Below, piece after piece: positions 4,206 through 20,462 of a DNA stretch of 20,462 nucleotides (its first letter is position 1; each line of letters opens with the position of its first letter). The position numbers and the translations under genes were made by a program. Origin of the DNA: a virus; IMG/VR virus record IMGVR_UViG_3300008996_000058, positions 1 to 20,462 of that record, one strand, 5' to 3'. Below the pieces are notes generated by a model that worked only from the letters and a program-made list of their open reading frames with translations, searched no databases and had not been told where the DNA came from.

Positions 4206-5813
4206 TTAAACAGTAGCTAGGTCAGAAACCCAGATCTTACCGTAGAATTCAGGACGGATCATCTTCTTAGCGTAACGAGTCATAATACCCTTCGTTGGAG
4301 TGAAGTTCTTAGGATCGTATACTAATGGAGTCATCATTAATGGTACATATGGAGCATAAACAGCACCTGTCTCTAGGAACTGGCTACCTCTGTAACCCAT
4401 AAGGATAACGTTCTCAGTCATGTAAGGGTTCTTATAAACACGGAAGCGTGAGTTAAGTGAACCTACTTTCTGAACACCCATTGCGAAGTCCATCTTGTCA
4501 CCGTTAGTCTCGGCAGCATATCCAGGAATTGACTCAAGGATAGTAGCAACAGAAGGAGAAACTACTAGGAAGTTTGCACCGCCACGTAAAGTCTTCTGGT
4601 GGATCTTGTTAGACACTTTCTGGATCTTAGTACCAAGAGTTTGGAACCACTGACCTTGAGTGTTGTAGAAATCAGCTACAGCAGTAGTCTGCCATGCACC
4701 GTTAGCCCAGATCTTGTTGTTCTCAGCAGACCACTTCTCAGTAGTAACTGCATCTTGGATAAGCATATCAAGGATCTCGAGATCGATTTCCATAGAGATA
4801 TACTCAGAAAGAAGAGAAGTTAACTCAGCCTCAGCGTCGATGCTGTGGTAAGCGTTAAGATCTTGAGCGAATTCTGGAGACCATTGTGCTTTTAACTTAC
4901 GAGTCTTAGCAACGATAGCTTCAGAAGCAAGAGATACGTTGATCTCAGGGATAACTGGAGTTGTATCACCTACACCGTCAGTGAATTCGAAATCACCACG
5001 AGTGTTGTCAGATGGCTGAAGGTGGAATACAGCAGCAGCGTCAGTTAAGTTAGCAGCAGTAACCGCAGAAGCAGCAACTACGAAAGTAACTGTGTTACCA
5101 GATACAGTAGTGAATTCTGGGTTAGTTGTGATGTCGCTAGCGGCACCGTAAGCGGCAGAGCCAGAAGAAAGACGGAAAGCACGAACACCTTTAGTATCAA
5201 TAGCTTGAGCAAAAGTGATTGCGTAAGTCTTATAGTCGCTTGGGTTAACACCATCTTGGTAGCCAACAGAAGCTGAAGTAGCAGTACCAGCTGTGATAGC
5301 TAGAGATGCAGTAGCAACTGGGTTGATTGTGTAACCGAATTGTCCAGCACCGTAAAGACCACCAGCAACTTCTAGATCAACAGTCATTTTGCTGTTAGCA
5401 GTAGAAACGTTACCGTAAAGGTTGTCACCTAGAGTACGACCGTTAACACCGTTACCATACTTGAAGTCAAGATAGAATACTAGGCCAGAAGGAAGGTTCA
5501 TTGGTTGAACAGAAACGAAATCTTTAGCAGAGATCTGAGCGAATACTTTACGCACAAGTGGTAAAGCAACACCAGCCCATTGCTCAGCGTTAGCTGTAGC
5601 AGTACCGATAGCACCGCCACCAGTAGAGTTCATTTCGTTTACAAGCTGCTTAGCTTGGTTTTCGAGGATCATAGCCATGCTATTTTTCTCGATCTCGTTG
5701 TTTAAGCCCTCAAGTAAGCCTGTAGCAGACCACTTATCAGCTAAACGAGTTGCGTCAGCTTGTAAGCTCTTGAAGCCTTGAGCTGACTCGTTTAATAGAG
5801 AATTTAATTCCAT
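4206..5813 (-). CDS. gp23: Major capsid protein, T4 gp23 family
   Basis: This 535-residue protein forms the hexameric lattice of the head. The diagnostic N-terminal block is present: DKWSATGLLEGL near 26-37, then ENQAKQLVNE, and WAGVALPLVRKVFAQISAKD followed by FVSVQPMNLPSGLVFYLDFK at about 79-118. T4 gp23 is matured by removal of about 65 residues by gp21 at (L/I)-x-E. Candidate sites here are LNE at 7-9, LLE at 33-35 and ILE at 49-51, and VNE at 58-60 is a near match. The middle (about 155-290) is a Thr/Ala/Ser-rich stretch at the place where gp23 proteins carry an insertion domain; the C-terminal third has the shell helices and ends ...FYGKIWVSDLATV. T4 gp23 is 521 residues. The gene follows the scaffold by 20 bases with no promoter between them and is followed by a strong terminator. 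Confidence 0.97.
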   Translation of the reverse strand: MELNSLLNESAQGFKSLQADATRLADKWSATGLLEGLNNEIEKNSMAMILENQAKQLVNEMNSTGGGAIGTATANAEQWAGVALPLVRKVFAQISAKDFVSVQPMNLPSGLVFYLDFKYGNGVNGRTLGDNLYGNVSTANSKMTVDLEVAGGLYGAGQFGYTINPVATASLAITAGTATSASVGYQDGVNPSDYKTYAITFAQAIDTKGVRAFRLSSGSAAYGAASDITTNPEFTTVSGNTVTFVVAASAVTAANLTDAAAVFHLQPSDNTRGDFEFTDGVGDTTPVIPEINVSLASEAIVAKTRKLKAQWSPEFAQDLNAYHSIDAEAELTSLLSEYISMEIDLEILDMLIQDAVTTEKWSAENNKIWANGAWQTTAVADFYNTQGQWFQTLGTKIQKVSNKIHQKTLRGGANFLVVSPSVATILESIPGYAAETNGDKMDFAMGVQKVGSLNSRFRVYKNPYMTENVILMGYRGSQFLETGAVYAPYVPLMMTPLVYDPKNFTPTKGIMTRYAKKMIRPEFYGKIWVSDLATV

Positions 5814-5833: not shown

Positions 5834-7015
5834 TTATTTAATAATTCCTGCAAGTTTTTGCATGCGTAATACAGCCTGATTAGCTTCAGCAATTACTTCT
5901 GGTTTGTCAGATGTTCCTACAGCAGCTGAAGCAAAGCCCTTGGCTTCCTTAACTACTTCTTTTTTACCAGAAGGAATGTTTTCGCTAACCGTTTCAAAAA
6001 CAAGCTTAACTTCTTTAACTGTCTCAGCTTTGTCGAAAGCAGCAATAACTGTAGCTTTCTGTGATTCAGTAAGGGCGTTAGCCTTGAATACCTTATTAAC
6101 GTAAAGTAACTTAGCATTTAGTAAGTTTACTTCATTAAGATCTTTGCGAAGAGCTTCGATAGTCTCCATAGCTTCAGCGAGTTCTTCACCGATAGAGGAT
6201 GTCTTACCAGAACCAGACTTAGCCATACCGGCTGTAACTGTACCTGGATCTAAGATATCCATTTTCTCAGCAAACTTGAAGAATTCGTCATCGATAAGTG
6301 GTTTACCCTCTTTAGCATTTTGCTGCATCTTAGCAACTAATTGCTTGATCTTATCCATAGGTCCTTCTTCCATAGTCTCTTCTTCTTCTGCGACGTTACC
6401 GTGAGCAGTTTCAGTCTCTGGATCGTTGATAGTCTCTTCAACAGTATCTTCGTCTTTAGCCATTTCAGCGAGTTCAGCCATGAGTTCGTCGAGGTTAATT
6501 TCTTCCTCTCCGGCTTCAGCCTCAGGTTCAGCAGTCATATCCATGCCTACCATATCTTCAGCTTCCTCATCACCTTCTTCACCTTCAGGCGCTTCCATGT
6601 CACCCATTTCCTGAGAAAGGATATCACGGATTAGGTCTTTAAGGTCATCGACAGTCATGTCTTCAACCTCTAGATCTTCTTCAGCTTCGTCCTCTGATTC
6701 TTCAGAGTCACCCTCAGCTTCTTCTTCACCAGCTTCTTCACCTTCTTCTTCCTCTTTTTCTTCAGCTTCTTCAGCCTCCGCTACTTCTTCTTTGTAGTCG
6801 CCTTCTTCCATAGTTTCAGTCTCTTCAACTTCAGCTTCAGCAAGAACCTCTTGGTTCTCTGCTTCTTCTTCCATCTCAGCTAAACGTTGAGCTAAAAGCT
6901 CTTTTAACTGTGGAGTTAACGACTCCTCTAAAGCAAGTTTTGCGTTAGTGATAGCAGCTTCACGAATAGATTTAGCATCAGCAATAGCCTGCTTGAATAA
7001 ATCTTTGTTAGCCAT
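5834..7015 (-). CDS. gp22-like: Prohead core scaffold, gp22-like
   Basis: This 393-residue, extremely acidic protein lies directly upstream of the capsid gene, where T4 has scaffold gene 22. The N-terminal helix (MANKDLFKQAIADAKSIREA to about residue 50) is followed by a Glu-dominated low-complexity zone (about 46-215). A mixed region comes next, then a helical C-terminal domain (about 285-393) containing LLNAKLLYVNKVFKANALTE and ending RMQKLAGIIK. Family role: scaffolds build the core on which the shell assembles and are then digested by gp21. Many L-x-E tripeptides (LAE, LEE, LLE) fit that fate. T4 gp22 is about 269 residues, so this is longer, mostly through the acidic zone. It shares one transcript with the capsid, has a 97-base structured leader, and carries a TATTTATA octamer upstream. 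Identity rests on position, composition and recalled C-terminal similarity. Confidence 0.85.
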   Translation of the reverse strand: MANKDLFKQAIADAKSIREAAITNAKLALEESLTPQLKELLAQRLAEMEEEAENQEVLAEAEVEETETMEEGDYKEEVAEAEEAEEKEEEEGEEAGEEEAEGDSEESEDEAEEDLEVEDMTVDDLKDLIRDILSQEMGDMEAPEGEEGDEEAEDMVGMDMTAEPEAEAGEEEINLDELMAELAEMAKDEDTVEETINDPETETAHGNVAEEEETMEEGPMDKIKQLVAKMQQNAKEGKPLIDDEFFKFAEKMDILDPGTVTAGMAKSGSGKTSSIGEELAEAMETIEALRKDLNEVNLLNAKLLYVNKVFKANALTESQKATVIAAFDKAETVKEVKLVFETVSENIPSGKKEVVKEAKGFASAAVGTSDKPEVIAEANQAVLRMQKLAGIIK

Positions 7016-7304: not shown

Positions 7305-7475
7305 TTAGGCTTTATCTTCAGCTGTTGAAGCTTTTCTATACTCTGTAATAAGCTTTTTAATCTCTCCGGCTGCCTTTCTAGCTCTAGAGTGAGCAGCTTT
7401 AGTTGGTTTTCCGTGTTCGGCTTCTAGGGTTGTGAAATGTTCAGCAATCCTGTCAAATAGTTCTTGTGATGTCAT
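7305..7475 (-). CDS. Histone H1/Hc1-like small DNA-binding protein
   Basis: This 56-residue protein begins MTSQELFDRIAEHFTTLEAE and continues with a helix rich in Ala, Lys and Arg (KAAHSRARKAAGEIKKLITE, residues 26-45), ending YRKASTAEDKA. The pattern of an N-terminal 'F..I...F..LE' helix followed by 'KAA..RARKA..EIKKL...YRKAS' is that of Hc1-type histone H1-like proteins of Bacteroidetes and Chlamydiae, and similar short proteins occur in T4-like marine phages. Likely role: nucleoid-type binding of phage or host DNA; packaging into the head is conceivable from the neighbourhood. It follows the prohead protease by 18 bases and precedes the 38-residue gene by two. The leader is A/T-rich without a Shine-Dalgarno sequence. 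The family call is by pattern recall. Confidence 0.75.
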   Translation of the reverse strand: MTSQELFDRIAEHFTTLEAEHGKPTKAAHSRARKAAGEIKKLITEYRKASTAEDKA

Positions 7476-7493: not shown

Positions 7494-8072
7494 TTAAGCT
7501 CTTAAGATGTCGTTAAGAATGGAATCTAATTTACCATACTTATCTTGCTTTACAGCTCCTTCGTTCAATGAAATAGGGTTCATAAATGCTCCGTGAGTAG
7601 ATGGATTGGAAACAAAGTCCCAACACACTAGCTCGAAGTCATCTTGAACTTCTAAATATCCTTCGTTTGTAGGTTTAACAGATCCAGTACCTCTAGAAGA
7701 GATACCGATGGTGTGTCCACCTTTAATAATTTCTTTTACAATATTCCCGGCTGGAGTATTAAGTAACTCTACTCTACCGCATAAATCGTCGCCGTCCCAC
7801 CATAGATCTTTAACTACGTGAGAGGCGTTCTTTAGAGATACAATTGGAGACTCTGGGTGATCTAATTCACCATAGGCATTACCTACTTTAACAAAGTTTT
7901 CTAGGTAGTTGTTAACTTCTCTAAGTAGAACTTTCTTATCGTATACTCTGCCGTTTTGGTTTTGAGCTCCTGCTCTTTGCATTACGCCTTCGACTTCAAA
8001 AACGCCCGGTCTTTCCTTAGATTCTCTAAGAACAGATTTAAATGGGGTATATTCTACTAATACGTTTGCCAT
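7494..8072 (-). CDS. gp21: Prohead maturation protease, T4 gp21 family
   Basis: This 192-residue serine protease should cleave scaffold, capsid and internal head proteins during head maturation at (L/I)-x-E sites. The catalytic His is in AYGELDHPES (His72), and the Ser is in TIGISSRGTGSV (Ser125 or Ser126), followed by the beta segment FELVCWDFVSNPSTHGAFM typical of the herpesvirus-like protease fold used by gp21. Near the N-terminus VFEVEGVMQRAGAQNQNGRV and then YDKKVL are also characteristic. T4 gp21 is about 212 residues. The acidic/helical C-terminal tail is short (KLDSILNDILRA). It starts two bases after the stop of the 330-residue gene, so it is translated from the same message. The capsid and scaffold substrates lie immediately downstream in the next unit. 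Confidence 0.95.
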   Translation of the reverse strand: MANVLVEYTPFKSVLRESKERPGVFEVEGVMQRAGAQNQNGRVYDKKVLLREVNNYLENFVKVGNAYGELDHPESPIVSLKNASHVVKDLWWDGDDLCGRVELLNTPAGNIVKEIIKGGHTIGISSRGTGSVKPTNEGYLEVQDDFELVCWDFVSNPSTHGAFMNPISLNEGAVKQDKYGKLDSILNDILRA

Positions 8073-8074
8073 GG

Positions 8075-9067
8075 TTACTCTGTAATTACTTTAGTAATGA
8101 TCTTCTTGAATAACTCTTTAAGCTGTTGTTCTTCTAGACCACGTTCACGACGTAAAGTTTCCTCATCGTGCTCTTCTTGATCTTTAGAGATCTGAGCTAG
8201 TTCCTCTTCTGAGTATTTAGGTGCTTCGTATTCGGCTACTTTACCTACATAGTGTAGTACGCTTCCGTTGGCTAATGTTACTTTACCGTCTTTATGAAGT
8301 TTTTCCATCTCTTCGTCAGAAAGCTCAAGTGTAGTTCCTTCGTCTACATCATATCCAAGCTCGTCAGGAGTTAATGTATGCTTATCTTCAGGGTATACAG
8401 GGCCGTCTTTCTTCTCATCCATTCTTTGACCCATATAATCATTGAAGTCGTCCTCTAGATCGTCCATTGACTGCCAAGTAGCATACTGAGTTGTTCTAGA
8501 AGGATCTCCTGATTTAAAGTCTCTCATTACGGAAGCTACATAAGCTTTAGCAACTTCGTCTCTAGGATCAGCATCAGCTAAAAAGTCTTTAAGTAAGCCG
8601 GTAATTAAAGCTTTGTTTAGTATTACAGGCTCATTACCCATCTCGCTAACTTCTTCCTTAACTACTACCTTCTCCATTTTCTCTCCTGGAGTCTCTAGCT
8701 GAATGCTATCTTGCTTAACGTAGTAGAGTACGTCTTTAGCTAGGTTACTAACAGCCATTGCTTTACATTTCTCATATTGCTCTGGAGTAACGTCTAAAGT
8801 ACCGTATTTGTTATCAAGCTCAAATTTGATACCTGTATCTAATACATCAGGAGCAATTGCATCCTCAGGCTTAGCTGTAGAGTACTTAGGTTCTTGCATC
8901 TTAGCTTCAGCAATCATACCTCTATTCTTGAGAATATTTACAGTATCATCGTAGCTATTAACCTTAGAGATAAGGTTAGGTAGTTGCATACTAGCATCTC
9001 TAACAAATTGGGATTTCGCGAAGCTACCTTCGGCGACAGCGTTGTATTTCTCTTGTAATGTTTTCAT
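8075..9067 (-). CDS. Head-region protein of unknown function, probable prohead component
   Basis: This 330-residue acidic protein begins MKTLQEKYNAVAEGSFAKSQ and then FVRDASMQLPNLISKVNSYD, a block I recall from uncharacterised proteins beside head genes of environmental T4-like phages. After about residue 60 it is rich in Glu, Asp and Lys, with helical stretches near 160-190 and a Glu-rich C-terminal helix (about 275-330). The first residues resemble the T4 internal-protein signal MKTYQEFIAEA, with VAE at 11-13. It occupies the slot between portal and protease where T4 has small core genes 67 and 68, so a core or internal-head role is plausible. It starts in an ATGA overlap with the 73-residue gene and ends two bases before the protease. 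No enzymatic motif was seen. Confidence 0.7.
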   Translation of the reverse strand: MKTLQEKYNAVAEGSFAKSQFVRDASMQLPNLISKVNSYDDTVNILKNRGMIAEAKMQEPKYSTAKPEDAIAPDVLDTGIKFELDNKYGTLDVTPEQYEKCKAMAVSNLAKDVLYYVKQDSIQLETPGEKMEKVVVKEEVSEMGNEPVILNKALITGLLKDFLADADPRDEVAKAYVASVMRDFKSGDPSRTTQYATWQSMDDLEDDFNDYMGQRMDEKKDGPVYPEDKHTLTPDELGYDVDEGTTLELSDEEMEKLHKDGKVTLANGSVLHYVGKVAEYEAPKYSEEELAQISKDQEEHDEETLRRERGLEEQQLKELFKKIITKVITE

Positions 9068-9285
9068 TGTCTGTAGTCTACCATTTTAGTGCTAGAAGGT
9101 CTGTTTGGTCGTTGTGTCTTCTTGAAACCCATTTTAGCCATAAACTTAGTGGCTAAGTTATCGCGATCGTCTTTTGAAAAAGCATTAGGAGTTTGATATG
9201 CTCCTACTGCACCAGTAGTGTTCATTTCTGAGAGTTGTTCTCTAACATACTCTCTTAATAGTTCTGCTACTTCACTTCTTTTCAT
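9064..9285 (-). CDS. 73-residue protein with a capsid-targeting-like N-terminus
   Basis: The N-terminus MKRSEVAELLREYVREQLSE forms an amphipathic helix with LRE at 10-12 and LSE at 18-20, both fitting the gp21-type (L/I)-x-E cleavage form. The rest is short, polar and Gly/Asn-rich (AVGAYQTPNAFSKDDRDNLA), followed by FMAKMGFKKTQRPNR and a basic tail. ATGA overlaps couple it to the genes on both sides. Proteins of this style occur beside portal genes in environmental T4-like phages, as far as I recall, without a known function. In T4 the comparable slot encodes small core proteins that gp21 digests, which is my best guess here. Confidence 0.7.
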   Translation of the reverse strand: MKRSEVAELLREYVREQLSEMNTTGAVGAYQTPNAFSKDDRDNLATKFMAKMGFKKTQRPNRPSSTKMVDYRQ

Positions 9286-12078: not shown

Positions 12079-13653
12079 CTACAGTAACCAAGATATATCC
12101 TCTTGGCCATGTGGAGTATCTATAGTATACGGATTATTTTGCATATTTCCAACTGAATACGCGGCTCCTTGTCTTTGATTTAGGTTTCCCATGGCAGATA
12201 AGGATGCTCTTGATAGATCTATTCCTTGCTGTCTTAATCTTAATGCTGTATCTCTGACGTATAGTCCGGTAGCAAAGGCCATTACTAAGTCATCATTATA
12301 GCTAGTCTGTGCTTGTGCTTTACCGTTCTTCCATACAAATACTCTCATCTCTTTTAAGAGTCTCTGAGATTTAATGGTTACAGATCTTTCTCTTACGTAG
12401 TCCATCATCTTAGCAATAACTAAAGGACGAGTGCGCATAGACATTGTAAAGCCAGGAACTAAGTTTCCTCGTTCCATCTTATTCATATAAGTCTCTACAG
12501 TATCCTGTTCTGATCTTGATGAGTAGTAGAGGTTAGCGTACTCTCTTTCAATAATCTGTTCAATCGTAGACCATCCGATGTTAGCATTTTCTACTACTAG
12601 CATTGCATTGTTATACTCAGTTGCTACTCCTACTAACATGTTACCAAATTCCTTAGGAGGTACTTTGCTTTTAAATTCTGCTACTTGAGTGGCTGCTTCA
12701 ACATCAAATATGTGAAAGGTAGAATAGTCTTGTCCGTCCCCTCTGGCAACGTCAGCTACAACCATATATGATTTCATATAGTCTGGGTATTCCCATATCC
12801 AGTAATCGCCCGATACTCCTCTTTTCTCTAAAGGGTCTTGCTGTGCTGTAGTTTCATAGAAGATTAGATCTTCTGGTTCAAATACTGTATCACCTGATGA
12901 TAAGAAGTCACAGTCACATTCCTGTGCTGCCATTCTAGGTCCTAGGTCATTGTCTTGTTGATCTCTCCAGGATTGACTTCTTTCAGGGTGTACGGTCCAA
13001 GGTAACTTAATAGGTACAAAGGAGTTTTCACCTGTTTCTGCTTTTTCCCAAGTCTGGTGGAACCAGTTACCAATCCCGTTAGGAGTTGATAGAGCCATAC
13101 ATTGACCACCGGTTGCAAGGGTCTGTTGAGCGGCTGCAAACGTTTCATCAATATTATCAATGAACGCAGCCTCATCAATTAAGAGTAGAGATACAGCTTC
13201 TGAACGAGCAGCATCTGAGTTAGATGATTTAGCTGCTATTCTAGAACCGTTAGTAAGTCTTAGTGAGAGTTTATTCTTCTCTACTGCTTTTAATTTTAAC
13301 CAGCTAGGAAGCTGATCGTACATAAACTGTACCTTAGTTACAAGGTTACGTGCAGTAGATTGTGTGGTTGCAAGAGCTAGTACGTTTTTGTCTTTATGAA
13401 AGAGCATCAGCCATAGTGAATAGCCTGCTGCTAAAGTTGAGATACCTAACTGTCTTGATTTAAGAGTAATAAGGTACTGATGATCTCTGAATAAGTAAAG
13501 TACTTTGTCCTGGAATGGGTAAAGGTTGAATAGTATACGTCCTCTTTGAGGGTGCTGAATATAACAGTACTTACGCATAAAATATGCCGGGTCTTTGGCA
13601 CATTTAGCGTATTCTTGTATTACTATCTGCTTAACATTCTGCTGTTCACTCAT
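12079..13653 (-). CDS. gp17: Terminase large subunit, T4 gp17 family
   Basis: This 524-residue packaging motor has an N-terminal ATPase and a C-terminal nuclease. A Walker A variant SRQLGIST is at 66-73 (T4 has SRQLGKT-type), Walker B LLLIDEAAF at 156-164, and the coupling motif ALSTPNG at 187-193. The RNase H-like nuclease shows VVADVARGDGQDYS with Asp301, VVENANIGW with Glu355, and SYNDDLVMAFA with Asp454/455. In this variant the usual Walker A lysine position is Ile71, and Lys65 precedes the loop. T4 gp17 is 610 residues; this is shorter mainly at the N-terminus. It overlaps the upstream spanin-like gene by ATGA. No small terminase (gp16) is recognisable in the window. It lies directly upstream of the portal, without the tail sheath and tube genes that separate 17 from 20 in T4. 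Confidence 0.98.
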   Translation of the reverse strand: MSEQQNVKQIVIQEYAKCAKDPAYFMRKYCYIQHPQRGRILFNLYPFQDKVLYLFRDHQYLITLKSRQLGISTLAAGYSLWLMLFHKDKNVLALATTQSTARNLVTKVQFMYDQLPSWLKLKAVEKNKLSLRLTNGSRIAAKSSNSDAARSEAVSLLLIDEAAFIDNIDETFAAAQQTLATGGQCMALSTPNGIGNWFHQTWEKAETGENSFVPIKLPWTVHPERSQSWRDQQDNDLGPRMAAQECDCDFLSSGDTVFEPEDLIFYETTAQQDPLEKRGVSGDYWIWEYPDYMKSYMVVADVARGDGQDYSTFHIFDVEAATQVAEFKSKVPPKEFGNMLVGVATEYNNAMLVVENANIGWSTIEQIIEREYANLYYSSRSEQDTVETYMNKMERGNLVPGFTMSMRTRPLVIAKMMDYVRERSVTIKSQRLLKEMRVFVWKNGKAQAQTSYNDDLVMAFATGLYVRDTALRLRQQGIDLSRASLSAMGNLNQRQGAAYSVGNMQNNPYTIDTPHGQEDISWLL

Positions 13654-14069
13654 AATAGTAGAAGAAGTACCGTTGCTAGAGCTCCTCCAGATGCACCGAA
13701 GGTAAGTCCGGTCCAGAATTTAGCTTTCTTTTCTTTACCCAGTACTGTTATTTCTTTATCTCTAATGGCAATCTGACTTTCTTTTTCAATAAAGATATCG
13801 TCATAAGTGACTAGTCTCTGCTGTAGGTTAGCAATTTGAGCTTTATTAGTCTCTACAAGCTTCTTATAGTCTTCAATGCTCTTTTCTAAGCTAATCTTTT
13901 CTTCTTTACAGAAGTCACCAGCTTCTAGGTCGGCAATAATCTGCCTAACCATATGATCAGGAAAACAAACTAAAGTGTCTCCGTTAACGATTGTAACGCT
14001 TTGCGAAGTAGCCGGGAAGGCTATCAACAGAAAGCCTGCTAAGCTCAGCAATTTTTTTATTGTATGCAT
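13650..14069 (-). CDS. Exported coiled-coil protein with C-terminal membrane anchor, spanin-like partner
   Basis: This 139-residue protein has an N-terminal signal peptide (MHTIKKLLSLAGFLLIAFPA, then TSQ as a signal-peptidase I type site). A short Cys-containing stretch (Cys35 and Cys54) follows, then a long coiled coil (about 57-115), and finally a C-terminal membrane segment (FWTGLTFGASGGALATVLLL). It starts inside the preceding gene, in its +1 frame, overlapping by 86 bases. This is the arrangement of Rz/Rz1 spanin pairs, which fuse inner and outer membranes at lysis. No lipobox Cys is present, so it is not a standard outer-membrane spanin; the signal-plus-C-terminal-anchor topology recalls unimolecular spanins. 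The stop overlaps the terminase start as ATGA. The topology is clear; the lysis role is inference. Confidence 0.65.
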   Translation of the reverse strand: MHTIKKLLSLAGFLLIAFPATSQSVTIVNGDTLVCFPDHMVRQIIADLEAGDFCKEEKISLEKSIEDYKKLVETNKAQIANLQQRLVTYDDIFIEKESQIAIRDKEITVLGKEKKAKFWTGLTFGASGGALATVLLLLL

Positions 14070-14325
14070 CTCTTTCTCTTTTACGTTTTGCTTCCTCGAT
14101 ATCTAAAGCGTTCTCAATAGAGTCAGCCTGTGCTTGTAGTAAGCCGGCTGCAAAAGCTAATGAGTCAATACGTTTTACTAATTGTAGTTCTCTAGCCTGG
14201 CTAGCTTCTTTCTGGTCTTTTAATTCCTGTAGGTAAGCTGCCTTATACGGGTTGTGTAGTCCCGTAGCATACATTGCTGCAATTACGATTGCAATGAGGG
14301 CGATTAAGTACGGTAGTTTATTCAT
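13984..14325 (-). CDS. Membrane-anchored coiled-coil protein, inner-membrane spanin-like
   Basis: This 113-residue protein has one N-terminal membrane segment (residues 5-23, PYLIALIAIVIAAMYATGL). It is followed by a continuous helical, charged region with heptad-like Leu spacing (about 32-92, including LQLVKRIDSLAFAAGLLQAQ) and a short C-terminus VDSLPGYFAKRYNR. This is the layout of Rz-type inner-membrane spanins, whose periplasmic coiled coil reaches toward the outer membrane. The next gene is embedded in its 3' end in another frame, as with Rz1. A TATTTATA octamer lies only eight bases upstream of the ATG, so the transcript leader would be very short. Alternatives include a generic inner-membrane scaffold protein. 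It is the first gene of the unit that ends with gp17. Confidence 0.65.
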   Translation of the reverse strand: MNKLPYLIALIAIVIAAMYATGLHNPYKAAYLQELKDQKEASQARELQLVKRIDSLAFAAGLLQAQADSIENALDIEEAKRKRERDAYNKKIAELSRLSVDSLPGYFAKRYNR

Positions 14326-14349: not shown

Positions 14350-15411
14350 TTAAATTTCTGTAACCGTTGATGCTGCTTTAGCAGTTGGGTAAATTCCAAA
14401 CCTACAGTTTAATAACCCAGCTGAATTTCTTCCTTTTCTGTAGCTTACATACAAGATAGGTTCGTAGCCTCCTGTTGGGAGTTCTGGGTTTAATAATGTG
14501 TGGTTACTTTCTACTAAATAACTGTTGTCGGGTTGTTTAACAAATTTAACGTTTCCTTGGTATACTACCTGGCAGTTATTAATATTAAAATTTTCCGTGC
14601 TCTGTTCTAGCCCGTAAATAGCTTTTAATTTAATCTCTTCTCCTTTTAATGCTCTTTTAAAACTCTGTTTAGGTTCTAATGATCCGTTAGTAAGTTTACT
14701 AACATCTTCAATAAAAGCTTTAATTTCAGGTTCTTCCATTAATCCGGTAAATCCTCCGTACTGTTGAAAGTCAGTTGGCTTAGAACCGTCTTTATGTGAG
14801 ATAAAGATCACAGGTCCTTTTTCCGTATCTAATGTAAAATCAGCCTTAGGAGTTCCGGGTACTGTTGAAGCTTTAACAATACCTTTATAGACATTTCCAT
14901 TTGGAGATAACTTTAGATCGATAGCTCCTAACTCCTGTAAGGCGCTATTAATACCTGCTAATGCTAAATCCTCTTTTGTAGTTCCTGATCCTTGCCCTTT
15001 TCCACCAAATTCAGGTGCTTTAAGTAAGTCCCCAATAGTGACAGAGTTTCCGTTTTCATCTTCAAAAAAAGGAAAACTGTTTATTCTTGGAGCTCCTATT
15101 TGAGCAATTCCATCAATATCTTGATTTGCAAATAAAGTAGCATACTCGTCGTTAACAAAAGAGAGTACGTATTCTTTATCGTTCATTCCAAGAAAAGACT
15201 CTCCTTTTTCGATTTTATCGTGTAAAACTTTTAAACGGGGTCCGCCATATTTTTTTAAATCTCCGAAAGACAGTTGCTTAAACGCTGCCTCGTATAACTC
15301 TTCTCCTAAAAATTCTCTAAGTATTTGAATATCTTCTAAAGAATTAATGTCAGGGTACCCTTTAGCGGTTCTCCATGACCATTCTGTGATTATTTTATCT
15401 ATCAAGTTCAT
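14350..15411 (-). CDS. Possible PD-(D/E)XK-like nuclease with internal-head-protein-like N-terminus
   Basis: This 353-residue protein begins MNLIDKIITEW, with ITE at residues 8-10. This is the same position as IAE in the T4 internal-protein capsid-targeting signal MKTYQEFIAEA. The middle carries a glycine-rich block GGKGQGSG (136-143), then EDLALAGINSAL with Glu147, PKADFTLD with Asp191, and IFISHKDG with Lys207, followed by DFQQYGGF. A conserved Glu, then Asp, then a beta strand ending x-S-x-K is the layout of divergent PD-(D/E)XK nucleases, here with Ser or His where Glu/Gln is usual. The C-terminal 90 residues are beta-rich. It is coupled to the upstream acidic gene by a TAATG junction and ends its unit. 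The nuclease call is tentative: no family name can be given, and it could be catalytically inactive. Confidence 0.5.
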   Translation of the reverse strand: MNLIDKIITEWSWRTAKGYPDINSLEDIQILREFLGEELYEAAFKQLSFGDLKKYGGPRLKVLHDKIEKGESFLGMNDKEYVLSFVNDEYATLFANQDIDGIAQIGAPRINSFPFFEDENGNSVTIGDLLKAPEFGGKGQGSGTTKEDLALAGINSALQELGAIDLKLSPNGNVYKGIVKASTVPGTPKADFTLDTEKGPVIFISHKDGSKPTDFQQYGGFTGLMEEPEIKAFIEDVSKLTNGSLEPKQSFKRALKGEEIKLKAIYGLEQSTENFNINNCQVVYQGNVKFVKQPDNSYLVESNHTLLNPELPTGGYEPILYVSYRKGRNSAGLLNCRFGIYPTAKAASTVTEI

Positions 15412-16280
15412 TACACTCCTGCAAATACATCTTCTTCACCTGTTGGTGTTTCTTCAGCTCCTGCTTCAGTACCGGCTTCAGCTCCAGCTTCAGCTCCTGC
15501 GGCGCCTCCTTCTTCTCCAGGAAACTCTCCGCCACCGCCTTCTACTCCCCCGAAGATATCTTCACCGCTAACGGCATCCATTCCACTTTGAATTGGGCCG
15601 GAAGCAAGCATGTCTGTAATCTTATCCAGGCATTGCTGATATTCGGCTAGATTCTGTAGGAAATACCTTTTACCTTCTACTGTAGCTTCAAAGCCTTTGC
15701 CCATCCACTTTAGTAGTATGTCTTGTCCATTCTTAAACTCTACTTTAAATGTAGATGGTTTAGGAGACATCCAACCTACCTTCTCAACAAACTCCTCAAA
15801 TTCAGGAGTCATTAAATGAACTAACGTCTTCTTAAGAGTAGGAAACTTAGCTAAGATATCTGCAGTAGCATCAGGAGCTTCTTCTTCACCTTCTACCTCT
15901 CCTGCATCAGGAAATTCCGTCTCAGGTGTTTCTTCTTCAGCTGGTACTTCTTCCTCGTCGCCTTCAGCTTCTGTTAGGTGTCCAGCATAACCTTTAACTA
16001 CGTTTCTAGGATTAGCGATATCTAGAGTTTTATTTAAGAAGTTAATTCGTTTTTGAAGTACTCCTTTCATAAGTTCTAGAGTCTCTAGATCAAATTCATC
16101 TTCAACAGCATCTAGGAACTCTTGAGTCTCTAGTTCGTTAAGCAGAGTTTTAAGTTGAGCTTCACTCATCTTGCAAGCTTTCTCGTACATAGCTTGTGCT
16201 GGAGTAGAGATCATTCCCTGCTCGGCTAAAAGCTCGTAGTAAGCTTCTTCAATAATATTTTTTAGATCTTGAATCTTCAT
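15411..16280 (-). CDS. Acidic protein with capsid-targeting-like helix, unknown
   Basis: This 289-residue protein starts with an amphipathic helix MKIQDLKNIIEEAYYELLAE (LAE at 18-20). A helical region follows (about 25-98), then a Glu/Pro-rich acidic linker (about 104-140) with a second LTE site. Next is a compact alpha/beta domain (about 142-235: ILAKFPTLKKTLVHLMTPEF, TFKVEFKNGQDILLKWMG, FEATVEGKRYFLQN). The C-terminal tail (about 245-289) is nearly all Gly, Glu and Ala in short repeats. The two low-complexity stretches create long spurious frames on the other strand. TAATG junctions couple it to genes on both sides. I do not recognise the folded domain. The composition resembles core or internal head proteins that are processed by prohead protease, which fits the N-terminal site. 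Confidence 0.7.
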   Translation of the reverse strand: MKIQDLKNIIEEAYYELLAEQGMISTPAQAMYEKACKMSEAQLKTLLNELETQEFLDAVEDEFDLETLELMKGVLQKRINFLNKTLDIANPRNVVKGYAGHLTEAEGDEEEVPAEEETPETEFPDAGEVEGEEEAPDATADILAKFPTLKKTLVHLMTPEFEEFVEKVGWMSPKPSTFKVEFKNGQDILLKWMGKGFEATVEGKRYFLQNLAEYQQCLDKITDMLASGPIQSGMDAVSGEDIFGGVEGGGGEFPGEEGGAAGAEAGAEAGTEAGAEETPTGEEDVFAGV

Positions 16281-16807
16281 TACTTCTTATTGCTGCAATG
16301 CTTAGGACTACTTTTTGAAATGTAAGGCTTCTTACACTCTTGAGAGCTTTCGTGAACTCTGCCGCATCTACCGCAGCAGGTAGCACCTTCGTATAAGGCT
16401 TCTGGCTCTTCTTCGGAAGGAGCTTCAGTAGAATCTAAATATTCTTCACCTTCTAGGTAATGCTTAACTGTATCAATATGCTCGAAAGCTACAGTAAGTT
16501 TGCTTTGAACCCAGGCGTCTAACTGCTGACCGTCTTGAATCATCTTTAAGAGTTCGATACAGTACTTAGCAGTATTGTGAAGCTGTATCTTAGCCATATC
16601 TGATTCGTCGTTTGGATTCTCGTTATGATCCTCCTCCATCGGCTCAATCTTAGCACCAGCTTTCTTAAGCTCGATTTCTTCTTCCGGGGATACTGCTTGA
16701 GCAATAGATCCGCCTTTTGGTCCGATTACTTTCTTTACTGTTTCAGCTTCTGCTAATACTTGCTGAATAGCTTCTAAGATAATTTCTTTCTTAAAGGATA
16801 TGGCCAT
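16280..16807 (-). CDS. Protein with conserved helical core and C-terminal Cys/His cluster
   Basis: This 175-residue protein begins MAISFKKEIILEAIQQVLAE (ILE at 10-12, LAE at 18-20). It then has GPKGGSIAQAV, an acidic stretch, and a helical core at about 69-120 (DMAKIQLHNTAKYCIELLKM, QLDAWVQSKLTVAFEHIDTV). I recall this core from uncharacterised proteins of marine T4-like phages, including cyanophages. The C-terminus has Cys144, Cys145, Cys148, His152, Cys158, His170 and Cys171, with CCGRCGRVH as the first half, so a small zinc-binding module is possible. It heads the unit 16807-14350 with TATTTATA 16 bases upstream, and overlaps the next gene as TAATG. A virion or internal-head role is inferred from the N-terminal signal; no enzyme motif is seen. 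Confidence 0.7.
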   Translation of the reverse strand: MAISFKKEIILEAIQQVLAEAETVKKVIGPKGGSIAQAVSPEEEIELKKAGAKIEPMEEDHNENPNDESDMAKIQLHNTAKYCIELLKMIQDGQQLDAWVQSKLTVAFEHIDTVKHYLEGEEYLDSTEAPSEEEPEALYEGATCCGRCGRVHESSQECKKPYISKSSPKHCSNKK

Positions 16808-16823
16808 GATAATGTTATTTCTT

Positions 16824-16831
16824 TATAAATA
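16824..16831 (-). promoter_or_regulatory. Putative late-promoter octamer upstream of the Cys/His-cluster gene
   Basis: The coding strand reads GCGCTATTTATAAAGAAA in the 28-base gap between two genes, ending 16 bases before the ATG at 16807. It is an exact octamer match with the other six. Confidence 0.6.
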
Positions 16832-16835
16832 GCGC

Positions 16836-17627
16836 TTAACAGTGGTAGTTTAAATACCTTTGCAGGGCTTTAGCGTATGTGGTTCCTTTGTCTTTAAGCT
16901 TGCCTTTAGCAACCTTAACTTTGGTACACGACAGGCTTCCTAGTCTTTTTTTTAGTATGCCCGGGTTCATTGGATCGTCAATACCTTCGGTCATTACAAA
17001 AAGGTCTCTGTCTTTTTTAGCTTCACCGCTTTTAATTAGGCTCTGCCATAATGCAGCAGCATCAGCGGTTTGATGAGCATCGGAGTAAAGCGGTCCTAGC
17101 TTTTCATGAGCTAATCTGTACATCTCTTTACCGATTCCGTATCCTCTGTATTCTGGTTTTACAATCACTGAGTCTACTTGGTATGATTGCATGTATGGTT
17201 TTAGTCTTAATGCTCCTACCTTATCTTTACCGTATGTAGCTAATACTACTTTGGTTCCGTTGATATCCTGAATATTAAAATCAATAGTTTCTTCCTGCTC
17301 CTCTAAACCTACTTTTAAAAGTTTGCTATAGTAGTGAGGATCTTCAGCTAAATGCTGTAGTGCAATCCTCTTAGCTTCTTCTCTATCATCAGTATGTTCT
17401 AACTCTACCCCAATACCGGTAGCAAGCTGTAGCATATTAACATCCGATTCAGCAGCAGGTTCTACAACTTCTTTATTAATATGAATAGCAGCTAACTGTT
17501 TTTCAGCTGCTGCTTTAGTATCATGAGTACCGAGTCTTTTACCGCCGTGCTTAGGATAGACAACATATTTGCCGTCTTGCTTGCGGATCATTTCTCTAAT
17601 AATCTCTGTTAATTTACTCTTCTTCAT
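16836..17627 (-). CDS. Multidomain phage protein with GNAT acetyltransferase-like domain
   Basis: This 263-residue protein shows at least four modules. Residues 1-17 (MKKSKLTEIIREMIRKQ) are a basic amphipathic helix with IRE at 10-12. Residues 20-52 (KYVVYPKHGGKRLGTHDTKA then AAEKQLAAIHINK) are a short module common in phage head-associated proteins. Residues 65-105 (GVELEHTDDREEAKRIALQH then LAEDPHYYSKLLK) resemble the DUF5661 type. Residues about 125-205 are GNAT-like, with VDSVIVKPEYRGYGIGKEMY at 151-169 carrying the R-x-x-G-x-G acetyl-CoA loop (161-166). The last 48 residues (NPGILKKRLGSLSCTKVKVA to QRYLNYHC) are another phage-type Lys/Cys module. The acetylation target is unknown. It follows a 30-base spacer after the 34-residue frame. 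The GNAT domain is well supported; calling the protein head cargo is inference. Confidence 0.8.
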   Translation of the reverse strand: MKKSKLTEIIREMIRKQDGKYVVYPKHGGKRLGTHDTKAAAEKQLAAIHINKEVVEPAAESDVNMLQLATGIGVELEHTDDREEAKRIALQHLAEDPHYYSKLLKVGLEEQEETIDFNIQDINGTKVVLATYGKDKVGALRLKPYMQSYQVDSVIVKPEYRGYGIGKEMYRLAHEKLGPLYSDAHQTADAAALWQSLIKSGEAKKDRDLFVMTEGIDDPMNPGILKKRLGSLSCTKVKVAKGKLKDKGTTYAKALQRYLNYHC

Positions 17628-17657
17628 AATTACTGTATAATGGAAACTACAAAAACA

Positions 17658-17762
17658 TTATATTTCACCTCCTAATCTCCCTGACGTAGTTCTTCTTCGG
17701 ATTTCTGAGGTAGGAAGCTTATCAGCTATTTTTATTGATTTCTTTGCCTGCTTTAACTGCAT
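17658..17762 (-). CDS. 34-residue basic frame overlapping the previous gene (possible small gene or +1 extension)
   Basis: A frame opens at ATG 17762 inside the 3' end of the previous small gene and reads MQLKQAKKSIKIADKLPTSE then IRRRTTSGRLGGEI before a TAA. It fills the stretch 17658-17721 that is otherwise non-coding, and its composition looks like a genuine basic phage peptide. It is in the +1 frame of the 64-residue gene, so it could be a separate overlapping gene, a frameshifted extension of that gene, or the trace of an indel. The Gly codons of its C-terminus happen to create AGGAGGTGA. No homology is recalled. Confidence 0.35.
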   Translation of the reverse strand: MQLKQAKKSIKIADKLPTSEIRRRTTSGRLGGEI

Positions 17763-17892
17763 CTTTGAAAGCCTTGGAGTTAGGGTGAGAGGATTTCTCC
17801 CCCCTAGCTCTCTTAGCTCTAATATTAGCCCATAGGCCAGGTTTCTCTTCAGTGAGAACTTCTCTAATAAGGTCTCTCATAAAAGCGTGCAT
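17722..17892 (-). CDS. Small basic protein of the 'GLWANI' type
   Basis: From ATG 17892 this encodes 56 residues: MHAFMRDLIREVLTEEKPGL, then a basic tail WANIRAKRARGEKSSHPNSK and KAGKEINKNS. The frame is open upstream to a GTG at 17916 (64 residues), and another ATG is at 17880. The ATG at 17892 is preferred because it clears the upstream stop by seven bases and leaves the amphipathic helix (IRE, LTE) at the very N-terminus. The 'GLWANIRAKRARG' block is one I recall from small proteins in many large phages; its function is unknown. The N-terminal helix matches the capsid-targeting-like starts of its neighbours. The 3' end overlaps the 34-residue frame. Confidence 0.65.
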   Translation of the reverse strand: MHAFMRDLIREVLTEEKPGLWANIRAKRARGEKSSHPNSKAFKDAVKAGKEINKNS

Positions 17893-17899
17893 TGCTGCT

Positions 17900-18043
17900 T
17901 TATCTGCCTTGGCCACGGTACTTCTTTTTATAGTTCTTGCTACTCTTTAAATGAGAAGTTTGAGTCTTAGAATGTACACCTGGACGGCTTACGTTTGGTT
18001 TTTCGTAAGCTATAGATGCGGATTGAGACTTAATCTTAGCCAT
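17900..18043 (-). CDS. 47-residue basic protein ending KKKYRGQGR
   Basis: The start lies in a TAATG junction with the stop of the previous gene. The product reads MAKIKSQSASIAYEKPNVSR, then PGVHSKTQTSHLKSSKNYKK and KYRGQGR. It is strongly basic (about a quarter Lys/Arg) and lacks Cys, Trp and Asp. I recall very similar small proteins ('GVH-K-T-S--KSSKNYKK-YRGQGR') in environmental T4-like and Bacteroidetes phages, where they are unannotated. The conserved basic tail suggests binding to nucleic acid or ribosome, but that is a guess. Translational coupling to the 95-residue gene and exact packing against the next start support it as real. Confidence 0.75.
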   Translation of the reverse strand: MAKIKSQSASIAYEKPNVSRPGVHSKTQTSHLKSSKNYKKKYRGQGR

Positions 18044-18598: not shown

Positions 18599-19426
18599 TT
18601 AGAACTTAAACGCTTTTTTTACTTTCTTACCTGCATTCTTAGCTCCGCCAACTGCTGCATTACCGGCATCTTTAGCTCCTCCTACAGCTGCCTTACCGGC
18701 ATTGTTTACAGGTTCTGCTACTTTATCTACTACCTTGGTAGTTTCTTTAGCTACGGTGTTTGCTGTATCAACGACTGCTTCTTGAGCTGGTTTAGTATCA
18801 ACGCTGACTGAGAGATCAACGTCTACTCCGACTAGTAGGGCAACTTCACCTTCTACTCCAATGGTTGCAACACCATCATCCATCGTAGCTCCACCACCTA
18901 CTTCAGCACCTACTTGTGCTCCAACGGATACACCGGCACCTGCTTCAGCACCATTACCATTCTCATCGTATGTGCTATTAGATGCTCCTACACCTACTGA
19001 TGCTCCAGCCATTGCTCCGGCGTGTCCTTCAGCACCATCGGCACCTACTTGACCACTAGCTCCAACATATGCTTTAGCTTCTGCTCCTGCGTGTACTTCG
19101 GTTGTGTTAGTTACTCCGCCATACTCTACTGAGTTAGATGCTCCAACTTCGGCAGAGGCACCTACTTCTGCATGTGCATCAACATATGCGTTTCTACCAT
19201 CCCATCCAGCTTCAGTTGTTGCTTCAGCATGAACTTCAGCTTCTGCATGGGCTTCTTGTGAGATGGTTACATCACCGATTTGGTTTGTATTTTCTACTCC
19301 AGCATGTACTTCTGCATTTGCTTCTACACCAGCACTTACTGATGTGTTTGTAACTTCAGTACCTGCAGATGCTCCTGCTGATGCTCCGGCGTTATCGTTA
19401 CCTACCGATTTGTTTACTTCACTCAT
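18599..19426 (-). CDS. Ala/Gly-rich repetitive protein, unknown
   Basis: This 275-residue protein is dominated by Ala, Gly, Val and Glu. Residues about 12-185 are irregular repeats in which small residues alternate with Val/His/Glu (for example EVHAGAEAKAYVGASGQVGA and VGASVGVGAS). This two-residue alternation suits a stack of short beta strands, as in a fibrous or solenoid protein. The acidic alternating part ends near 215. The C-terminus switches to a basic, Ala/Lys helix-like tail with a duplicated 11-residue unit (KDAGNAAVGGA type) and ends KKVKKAFKF. No signal peptide. It overlaps the holin-like gene by eight bases and abuts the cupin-like start. The codon pattern produces long frames on the opposite strand, which are shadows. 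I do not recognise the family; a virion fibre, or a DNA- or membrane-binding protein through the basic tail, are both possible. Confidence 0.7.
   Translation of the reverse strand: MSEVNKSVGNDNAGASAGASAGTEVTNTSVSAGVEANAEVHAGVENTNQIGDVTISQEAHAEAEVHAEATTEAGWDGRNAYVDAHAEVGASAEVGASNSVEYGGVTNTTEVHAGAEAKAYVGASGQVGADGAEGHAGAMAGASVGVGASNSTYDENGNGAEAGAGVSVGAQVGAEVGGGATMDDGVATIGVEGEVALLVGVDVDLSVSVDTKPAQEAVVDTANTVAKETTKVVDKVAEPVNNAGKAAVGGAKDAGNAAVGGAKNAGKKVKKAFKF
18639..18704 (-). repeat. 33-base tandem duplication in the Ala/Gly-rich gene
   Basis: Two adjacent 33-base units (18639-18671 and 18672-18704) share TTAGCTCC at one end and TTACCGGCAT at the other, with scattered differences between them, mostly at third positions. 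They encode the repeated Ala/Gly/Lys 11-residue unit near the C-terminus. The divergence suggests an old in-frame duplication under protein-level constraint. Confidence 0.8.
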
Positions 19427-19637: not shown

Positions 19638-20462
19638 TTACCAGAATCCTCCAAAGCTTGATTTGAGTCCAAGGAGTTTTGCATAACGAGGAAGTCTGCA
19701 TGACCAATAACCTGCTTTAGTCTTATCCTTTTTAGTAGGACAGTTATGTCTATCTGAGAATGCTTTACGAGCTTTAGCGTTATTAATCTTAGCTGTCAAT
19801 CCTCCTTTAGCATCACCAAAGTTAACTACAATAACGTTACCCTTAGCGTTCTTAGTGTATACTTTATATTTTTTAGGTCCTGAGCTTCTCATTGGTTTGT
19901 TAAGTTTAACCTCTTTACCTTTGTATTTAGCTTCGTCAACTCTTTTACCGTAAGCATACTTTACTCCGGTAGCTTTTGGTTGCTCTAGTCTCTTAATAAG
20001 GTCGTCAACGATTCGCTCTAGATGTTTGGTGGATCCTGCTCCTTGAGCTGCTTTTTTAATCTTCATGATTAAAGCCTGCTTTTCAAAGTCTTTAAGACCT
20101 GCTTCATCGATCATGTTAATAATCTCCTGTAGAGGAGTATCTTGAGCTTCACCTGTAATGTCTACTGCCCACATGTCTGGGTCTGGATCTTCTGGTAGGA
20201 TAGAGGCTAGTACGTCTGAACCTGCTATAAGCTTATAATTGACTTGATTACCGTCCATATACTTTAATGCTGTGGGCATCTGTACTTGATCAGTATCTGA
20301 GAAGGTTACAGTACCGGCTGGTAGTTCTCCTAAGAATGTCTTAATATCTGAGTATTTAGTCTGGTATCCTAGTCCACCGGCTGCTTTAGCTTTACCAGCT
20401 AAATCCATCCATCTCTCTTCCCCCATCTTCATTACTAGAGGCTCCTGTGAAGCTTCTCTCCA
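19638..20462 (-). CDS. Phage protein with Cys/Lys-rich C-terminal module (5' end outside window)
   Basis: The frame is open to the right edge: ten further codons (WREASQEPLV) precede the first in-window ATG at 20432, without a stop. The true start is therefore probably beyond the window, and at least 274 residues are encoded. The N-terminal part contains LGELPAGTVTFSDTDQVQMP and an acidic region. The middle is helical (about 100-150). The C-terminal 95 residues read KKYKVYTKNAKGNVIVVNFG, then ARKAFSDRHNCPTKKDKTKA and GYWSCRLPRYAKLLGL. The last block, with 'F--RH-C--KKDKTKAGYWSCR--RY', is a module I recall at the end of many proteins of environmental tailed phages, often head-associated; its function is unknown. 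It is the first gene of the accessory cluster seen here. Confidence 0.75.
   Translation of the reverse strand, partial: WREASQEPLVMKMGEERWMDLAGKAKAAGGLGYQTKYSDIKTFLGELPAGTVTFSDTDQVQMPTALKYMDGNQVNYKLIAGSDVLASILPEDPDPDMWAVDITGEAQDTPLQEIINMIDEAGLKDFEKQALIMKIKKAAQGAGSTKHLERIVDDLIKRLEQPKATGVKYAYGKRVDEAKYKGKEVKLNKPMRSSGPKKYKVYTKNAKGNVIVVNFGDAKGGLTAKINNAKARKAFSDRHNCPTKKDKTKAGYWSCRLPRYAKLLGLKSSFGGFW

Follow-up and report, generated by a model that had tools for sequence, protein, structure and literature searches.

Swappable terminal tags as predicted capsid-targeting propeptides in T4-like phages probably associated with Bacteroidota

The window analyzed here, a 20.5-kb virus contig (IMG/VR record IMGVR_UViG_3300008996_000058), carries on its minus strand the head genes of a T4-like phage, encoding a terminase with a T4-type N-terminal domain, a portal, a 283-residue protein, a 73-residue protein, a 330-residue protein, a gp21-type protease, an acidic scaffold and the major capsid protein (table 1). 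Its nearest isolate is Flavobacterium phage immuto, and because the gp21-type proteases of the two are 78% identical, the host of the window phage is probably a member of the Bacteroidota. At least five N-terminal modules (A–E), each with an (L/I)xE end, occur on many unrelated proteins of the clade, and we consider it likely that these tags are capsid-targeting propeptides removed by the gp21 homologue, a reading based on the tag boundaries, tag swaps, a match to the scaffold, co-occurrence with the S77 protease and likeness to the capsid-protein site. The original prediction had proposed, for several window proteins, a capsid-targeting signal with a gp21 site at its end; the same evidence strongly supports that part of it, whereas its single common signal is rejected by the presence of several unrelated tag types. 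With somewhat less assurance, we favor the wider proposal that a Bacteroidota-associated T4-like clade practices multi-address loading, in which at least five swappable tags, placed at either end of a protein or between fused cargos and removed at LxE, would bring more than 100 unrelated protein families into the head; the C-terminal peptide of the scaffold would be one of these addresses.

Tag A has the consensus MKKSELxxLIREEIxKVLxE, tag B MxNFDLKKFLVENKLTxNSRLLxE, tag C LSEEFRRMQKLAGIITE and tag D MIKLxDLLKE, and tag E is a 41-residue MNLIDKxILEWSYRxxKGYPD...LxE module. The window itself has tags of type A, a single type E module and, at the scaffold C-terminus, type C. Genes were called by a simple longest open reading frame (ORF) rule on IMG/VR contigs that are fragments, the patterns for tags A and D were made by hand, and downstream families were taken as unrelated if blastp gave no match at E 1e-3, family counts being upper bounds. 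IMG/VR was scanned with a DNA pattern that covered the tag B core and placed no condition on LxE; the scan yielded 116 proteins with N-terminal tag B and 61 unrelated downstream families. In 34 of these families the tag end coincides exactly with [LI]xE, against a background of 1.6%, and at three downstream control offsets the motif is found in only 0–1 of the 61. An equivalent scan for tag C, replacing earlier statistics that were not used for the final E since the DNA pattern itself contained it, placed [LI]xE exactly at the tag end in 10 of 16 families; tag C heads 57 downstream families. In both tags conservation ends sharply right after the E. A DNA-level origin of tag B, as a promoter or recombination cassette, was rejected because conservation starts at the ATG and the upstream bases hold little information. 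Tag B can also stand at a C-terminus or between two fused cargos, with LxE again separating it from the cargo (ALQE, then GFDLRKFLAENRK).

The bare (L/I)xE pattern on its own is weak and modestly unusual, because [LI]xE falls within the first 24 residues of half of the genes (52%) in the related loci; exactly at residues 18–20 it occurs in 3.8% of genes, and at random positions in 1.6%. E-rich amphipathic N-termini may often give LxE by composition, so that the original prediction merely picked them out, and the rest of the immuto genome is indeed at chance level. In that complete genome, compared with shuffled N-termini, LxE is found in 14 of 20 genes of the block upstream of terL (7.6 expected; p=0.0015) and in seven of nine head-block genes (3.2 expected; p=0.0085), whereas the remaining genes have no excess (50 of 198 vs. 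48.8 expected). This specificity for gene blocks, the exact-boundary matches of tags B and C and the swapping described below largely refute an origin by chance, to which we give almost no credence.

Different tag types are found among the members of 13 of 166 downstream clusters, one or two of which rest on borderline pattern assignments. The clearest swap involves a 130-residue protein with tag C (related locus L175) and a 139-residue protein with tag B (L470) that are 67% identical and exchange at ITE/NT (...GIITE/NTRYNELKPLE vs. ...SRLITE/NTQHTELKPLE; the slash marks the predicted cut). L198 and L402 likewise combine a shared downstream domain with different tags that switch at the cut, and A/D and E/D examples were also found. 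Because such modules replace each other on the same domain, they most likely do the same job.

A link to head assembly comes from the scaffold, whose C-terminus is the tag C peptide (RMQKLAGIIK) in 65 distinct scaffold-type C-termini from one scan; five of five near-complete genomes have it there, complete or as a variant. The same peptide serves as an N-terminal tag on other proteins. An S77 protease is encoded in 23 of 30 records chosen only for their tags, including all 16 of those of at least 90 kb, and in none of nine IMG/VR records of 45 kb or more that were drawn at random. Tags B and C were confined to four of 50,697 phage records, all of them immuto and all with an S77-type protease. 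Furthermore, positions P1'–P8' of the capsid-protein site resemble those of the 73-residue protein (mean BLOSUM 16.8 at the site vs. -4.8 elsewhere), and within-genome pairing of the two sites beats permuted pairing (p=0.0002). In the L075 contig, for example, the homologue of the 73-residue protein reads LDE/ANVTNVGG and the capsid protein VAE/ANSTNVGG. This likeness gives the best direct clue to cleavage of the 73-residue protein at LSE by the prohead protease. Alternatively, the tags could address proteins elsewhere, to the tail or baseplate, the membrane or a host protease, and their LxE ends could be helix caps: one immuto tag A gene adjoins baseplate genes (81.5 kb), and amphipathic helices are common addressing signals. 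We regard this as very improbable, as it leaves unexplained the scaffold C-terminal peptide, the exact LxE boundary, the LxE before C-terminal tags and the co-occurrence with S77.

Within the window, translation places L-x-E at residues 18–20 of the 73-, 175- and 289-residue proteins as anticipated (LSE, LAE and LAE, respectively), and a Peptidase_S77 match confirms the gp21 homologue. The 73-residue protein had been described as lying apart from the set; its gene actually sits between portal and gp21, which we take to be the position of T4 core genes 67 and 68. All 85 distinct N-termini of its homologues have [LIVM]xE, and its predicted mature part is basic (isoelectric point [pI] 10.2). Its neighbor, the 330-residue protein, has relatives with [LIVM]xE at residues 8–14 in 56 of 81 cases; its start MKTLQE... 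recalls T4 MKTYQE..., a stretch too short for a homology claim. Close relatives of the 289-residue protein vary in length (187–334 residues) and mostly keep the helix and LxE (LAE/LEE/LSE/LIE), two of them having LAS/LAT instead. Full-length relatives of the 175-residue protein (186–497 residues) keep LAE and diverge in the remainder. The GLWANI protein has the expected LTE at residues 13–15 if its 56 residues are read from the ATG at 17892, or at 21–23 of 64 residues from the upstream GTG at 17916. Its site is conserved in 10 of 11 distinct N-termini, [LIMV]xE precedes the GLWANI module in 14 of 17 contexts (background 0.15), and the mature part has a predicted pI of 10.5.

The 353-residue protein does contain the I8-T-E10 that had been proposed as its cut, but a cut there is disfavored, as conservation runs on to residue 41 and the site lies within the first helix of the AlphaFold2 (AF2) model. 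Its first 41 residues form a module common to proteins that differ afterwards, ending in FGxxLxE, and the model places helices at 3–14 and 25–35 and a linker at 37–43, with a predicted local distance difference test (pLDDT) score below 50, that holds L39-Y-E41. Relatives have [LIVM]xE at residues 36–46 in 68 of 77 cases and at 6–12 in 57 of 77. Sequence and model thus make L39-Y-E41 the likely cut site. Downstream, the invariant D191 and K207, with S205-x-K207 (S205-H-K207), suggest a PD-(D/E)XK-like nuclease; the protein has no Pfam match, and a fold search of the PDB gave no significant match, the best plausible one being EcoRV (E 0.41).

The 263-residue GNAT protein has the predicted I10-R-E12 at the end of a tag A-like start. 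It looks like a fusion of modules that relatives encode as individual tagged genes, and its joints carry xxE. In order it comprises the tag A-like segment, a KYVVY/LGTH module, DUF5661, a GNAT domain (PF13508, E 5.6e-7, 30.3 bits, curated cut-off 27; a fold search matches phage and viral GNATs) and a PGIL C-terminal module. The separate tagged genes are KYVVY/DUF5661 in L089 and L096, GNAT in L104 and L107, and the PGIL part in L391, L117, L409 and L151. Both joints, GLEE/QEETIDF and VMTE/GIDDPMNPG, lie in or beside low-confidence AF2 linkers, GLEE precedes the PGIL module also in L087/L096, and [LIMV]xE falls within nine residues before that module in 15 of 16 contexts (background 0.15). The simplest reading of sequence and model is a polyprotein cargo that would be cut at its joints.

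Tandem and internal tags are found elsewhere in the clade, near the start of a 251-residue ORF of L256, in L147:963-1763 and in the 530-residue ORF of L399; they include one protein in which tag A comes after tag C, and fused cargos with an inner tag. They suggest gene fusion or fission around the tag borders.

Several observations, besides the frequency of bare LxE, weigh against the propeptide reading. The capsid site in the clade is mostly VxE and not (L/I)xE, and the within-genome covariation of the capsid and 73-residue sites is confounded by phylogeny. Tags A and D have degenerate cores and a weaker LxE excess (19 of 58 families vs. 8.4 shuffled), some tagged genes are far from the head genes, and a literature search that took in few subscription journals or preprints found no virion proteomics or N-terminal data for the clade, immuto included. 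The downstream parts of tagged proteins have a median pI of 5.1 (121 of 166 below 6), unlike the basic internal proteins of T4, and a T4-like basic DNA-binding cargo in general is unsupported since most are acidic.

This acidity also fits the main rival explanation, that the tagged proteins are parts of the assembly core, recruited and then degraded or expelled like T4 gp22, gp67 and gp68, as do the several LxE sites in many proteins, the sharing of tag C with the scaffold and the placement of the 73- and 330-residue genes between portal and gp21, presumably like T4 67/68. Yet there are more than 150 downstream clusters, which vary between close relatives, and their enzyme-like domains (GNAT, PD-(D/E)XK, HD and AAA) are unlike conserved core proteins. 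Conserved sites, moreover, concentrate at the tag end and not at downstream control offsets. We therefore judge the core-part explanation unlikely, while giving it more weight than the other alternatives.

If the tags are propeptides, each would anchor its protein in the prohead core while the head is assembled, probably through the contacts of the scaffold, given that the scaffold itself ends in the tag C peptide. Cleavage after (L/I)xE by the gp21-type protease would follow, as the capsid-site match suggests, and free the tag; the proposed cuts of the 353-residue and GNAT proteins fall in or beside low-confidence AF2 linkers. In fused cargos, for instance the GNAT protein, the inner LxE joints would be cleaved too, and the mature proteins would stay inside the head with the DNA and may be delivered to the host.

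The principle is already known from T4, giant phages and P1. Capsid-targeting sequences of T4 internal proteins are propeptides of 10–19 residues, cut after L/I-x-E, in which targeting and processing residues are separable (PMC9026906). The tags resemble those of IPI/IPII/IPIII and Alt, processed by gp21, in being short N-terminal propeptides ending in L/I-x-E, in phages with T4-type head genes, an S77 protease and interchangeable cargo (PMC9026906). In contrast to the one family of T4, the clade has at least five tag types, which also occur at C-termini and between fused cargos, a scaffold C-terminus that is itself a tag, and cargo families that are far more numerous and mostly acidic. The giant phages SPN3US and phiKZ likewise have protease-removed N-terminal propeptides on inner-head proteins, including two SPN3US paralogues with an identical N-terminus, but several of their propeptides exceed 100 residues and are cut after other short motifs, and no swappable short-tag set is described (PMC5694885). 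For DarB of phage P1, an N-terminal stretch is enough to bring a foreign protein into the head (PMC9024508), although P1 offers a single protein, with no T4-type scaffold and no multi-tag set. New here are the interchangeable address set, the placement of its tags at either terminus or within fusions, the identity of one tag with a scaffold peptide and the size of the cargo repertoire; a literature search that left most subscription journals and preprints outside its scope found no earlier report of these tags.

Other genes of the window and its relatives deserve mention. Between gp21 and scaffold lies a 56-residue histone H1-like Hc1 protein (PF07432, E 2e-9) kept in more than 20 relatives. 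Two overlapping genes upstream of terL, one with a membrane helix and coiled coil at its start and the other with a signal-peptide-like start, have no Pfam match, and their arrangement resembles a spanin pair. The 275-residue protein, with Ala/Gly/Val-rich repeats (AGASAGAS..., AEVHAGVE...), is 80% identical in immuto, is almost without other relatives among the related loci, and has no Pfam or PHROG match. A 264-residue ORF truncated by the window end has a full form of 375 residues in L085 (start MLLTESKLTGVLTEG), and its C-terminal module (RHNCPTKKDKT..YWSCRLPRYAKLLGL) is common to many otherwise different proteins. Regarding host range, Microcystis phage Mel-JY01 (L493) has a protease 58% identical to that of the window and a scaffold ending in RMKKLAGIVK (22743–23843), suggesting that either the clade extends beyond the Bacteroidota or the Microcystis host label needs a check.

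Table 1. Features of the window, with predicted cuts marked by a slash
Feature	Coordinates	Strand	Details
Major capsid protein	4206..5813	-	predicted maturation site VNE(58-60) then MNSTGGGAIG, at 5634-5642
Scaffold (gp22 position)	5834..7015	-	C-terminus ...AVLRMQKLAGIIK; tag C peptide at 5837-5866
Histone-like 56-residue protein	7305..7475	-	
gp21-type prohead protease (Peptidase S77)	7494..8072	-	Pfam PF03420 E 1e-33; PHROG 207 head maturation protease E 1.8e-52
330-residue protein, core-gene position	8075..9067	-	N-terminus MKTLQEKYNAVAE, then G after predicted cut
73-residue protein (gp73)	9064..9285	-	tag A residues 1-20, 9226-9285; site LSE/MNTTGAVG
Two overlapping genes	13650..14325	-	
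353-residue protein	14350..15411	-	type E module residues 1-41, 15289-15411
353-residue candidate site LYE(39-41)	15289..15297	-	sequence and AF2
353-residue candidate site ITE(8-10)	15382..15390	-	sequence and AF2
289-residue protein	15411..16280	-	tag A residues 1-20, 16221-16280; site LAE/QG
175-residue protein, Cys/His-rich C-terminus	16280..16807	-	tag A residues 1-20, 16748-16807; site LAE/AE
263-residue GNAT protein	16836..17627	-	tag A-like MKKSKLTEIIRE at 17592-17627
GNAT inner joint MTE(212-214), then GIDDPMNPG	16986..16994	-	AF2 linker 215-221, pLDDT <50
GNAT inner joint LEE(108-110), then QEETIDF	17298..17306	-	AF2 linker 106-113, pLDDT <50
GLWANI protein	17722..17916	-	tag A-like RDLIREVLTE/EKPGLWANI; LTE at 17848-17856
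275-residue repetitive protein	18599..19426	-	
264-residue ORF	19638..20432	-	

Little is known of what tailed phages inject other than DNA, since their internal proteins evolve rapidly and, except in a small number of models (T4 among them), lack a recognizable signal. If the tags act as proposed, the packaged, and possibly injected, proteome of an uncultured aquatic phage clade would become predictable from sequence. It would also be a rich source of candidate host-takeover and counter-defense proteins, given that nearly all tagged proteins are without a known domain, with 16 Pfam families matched among 150 of them. The tags offer a model of cargo docking through a scaffold peptide and may be modular addresses for protein delivery.

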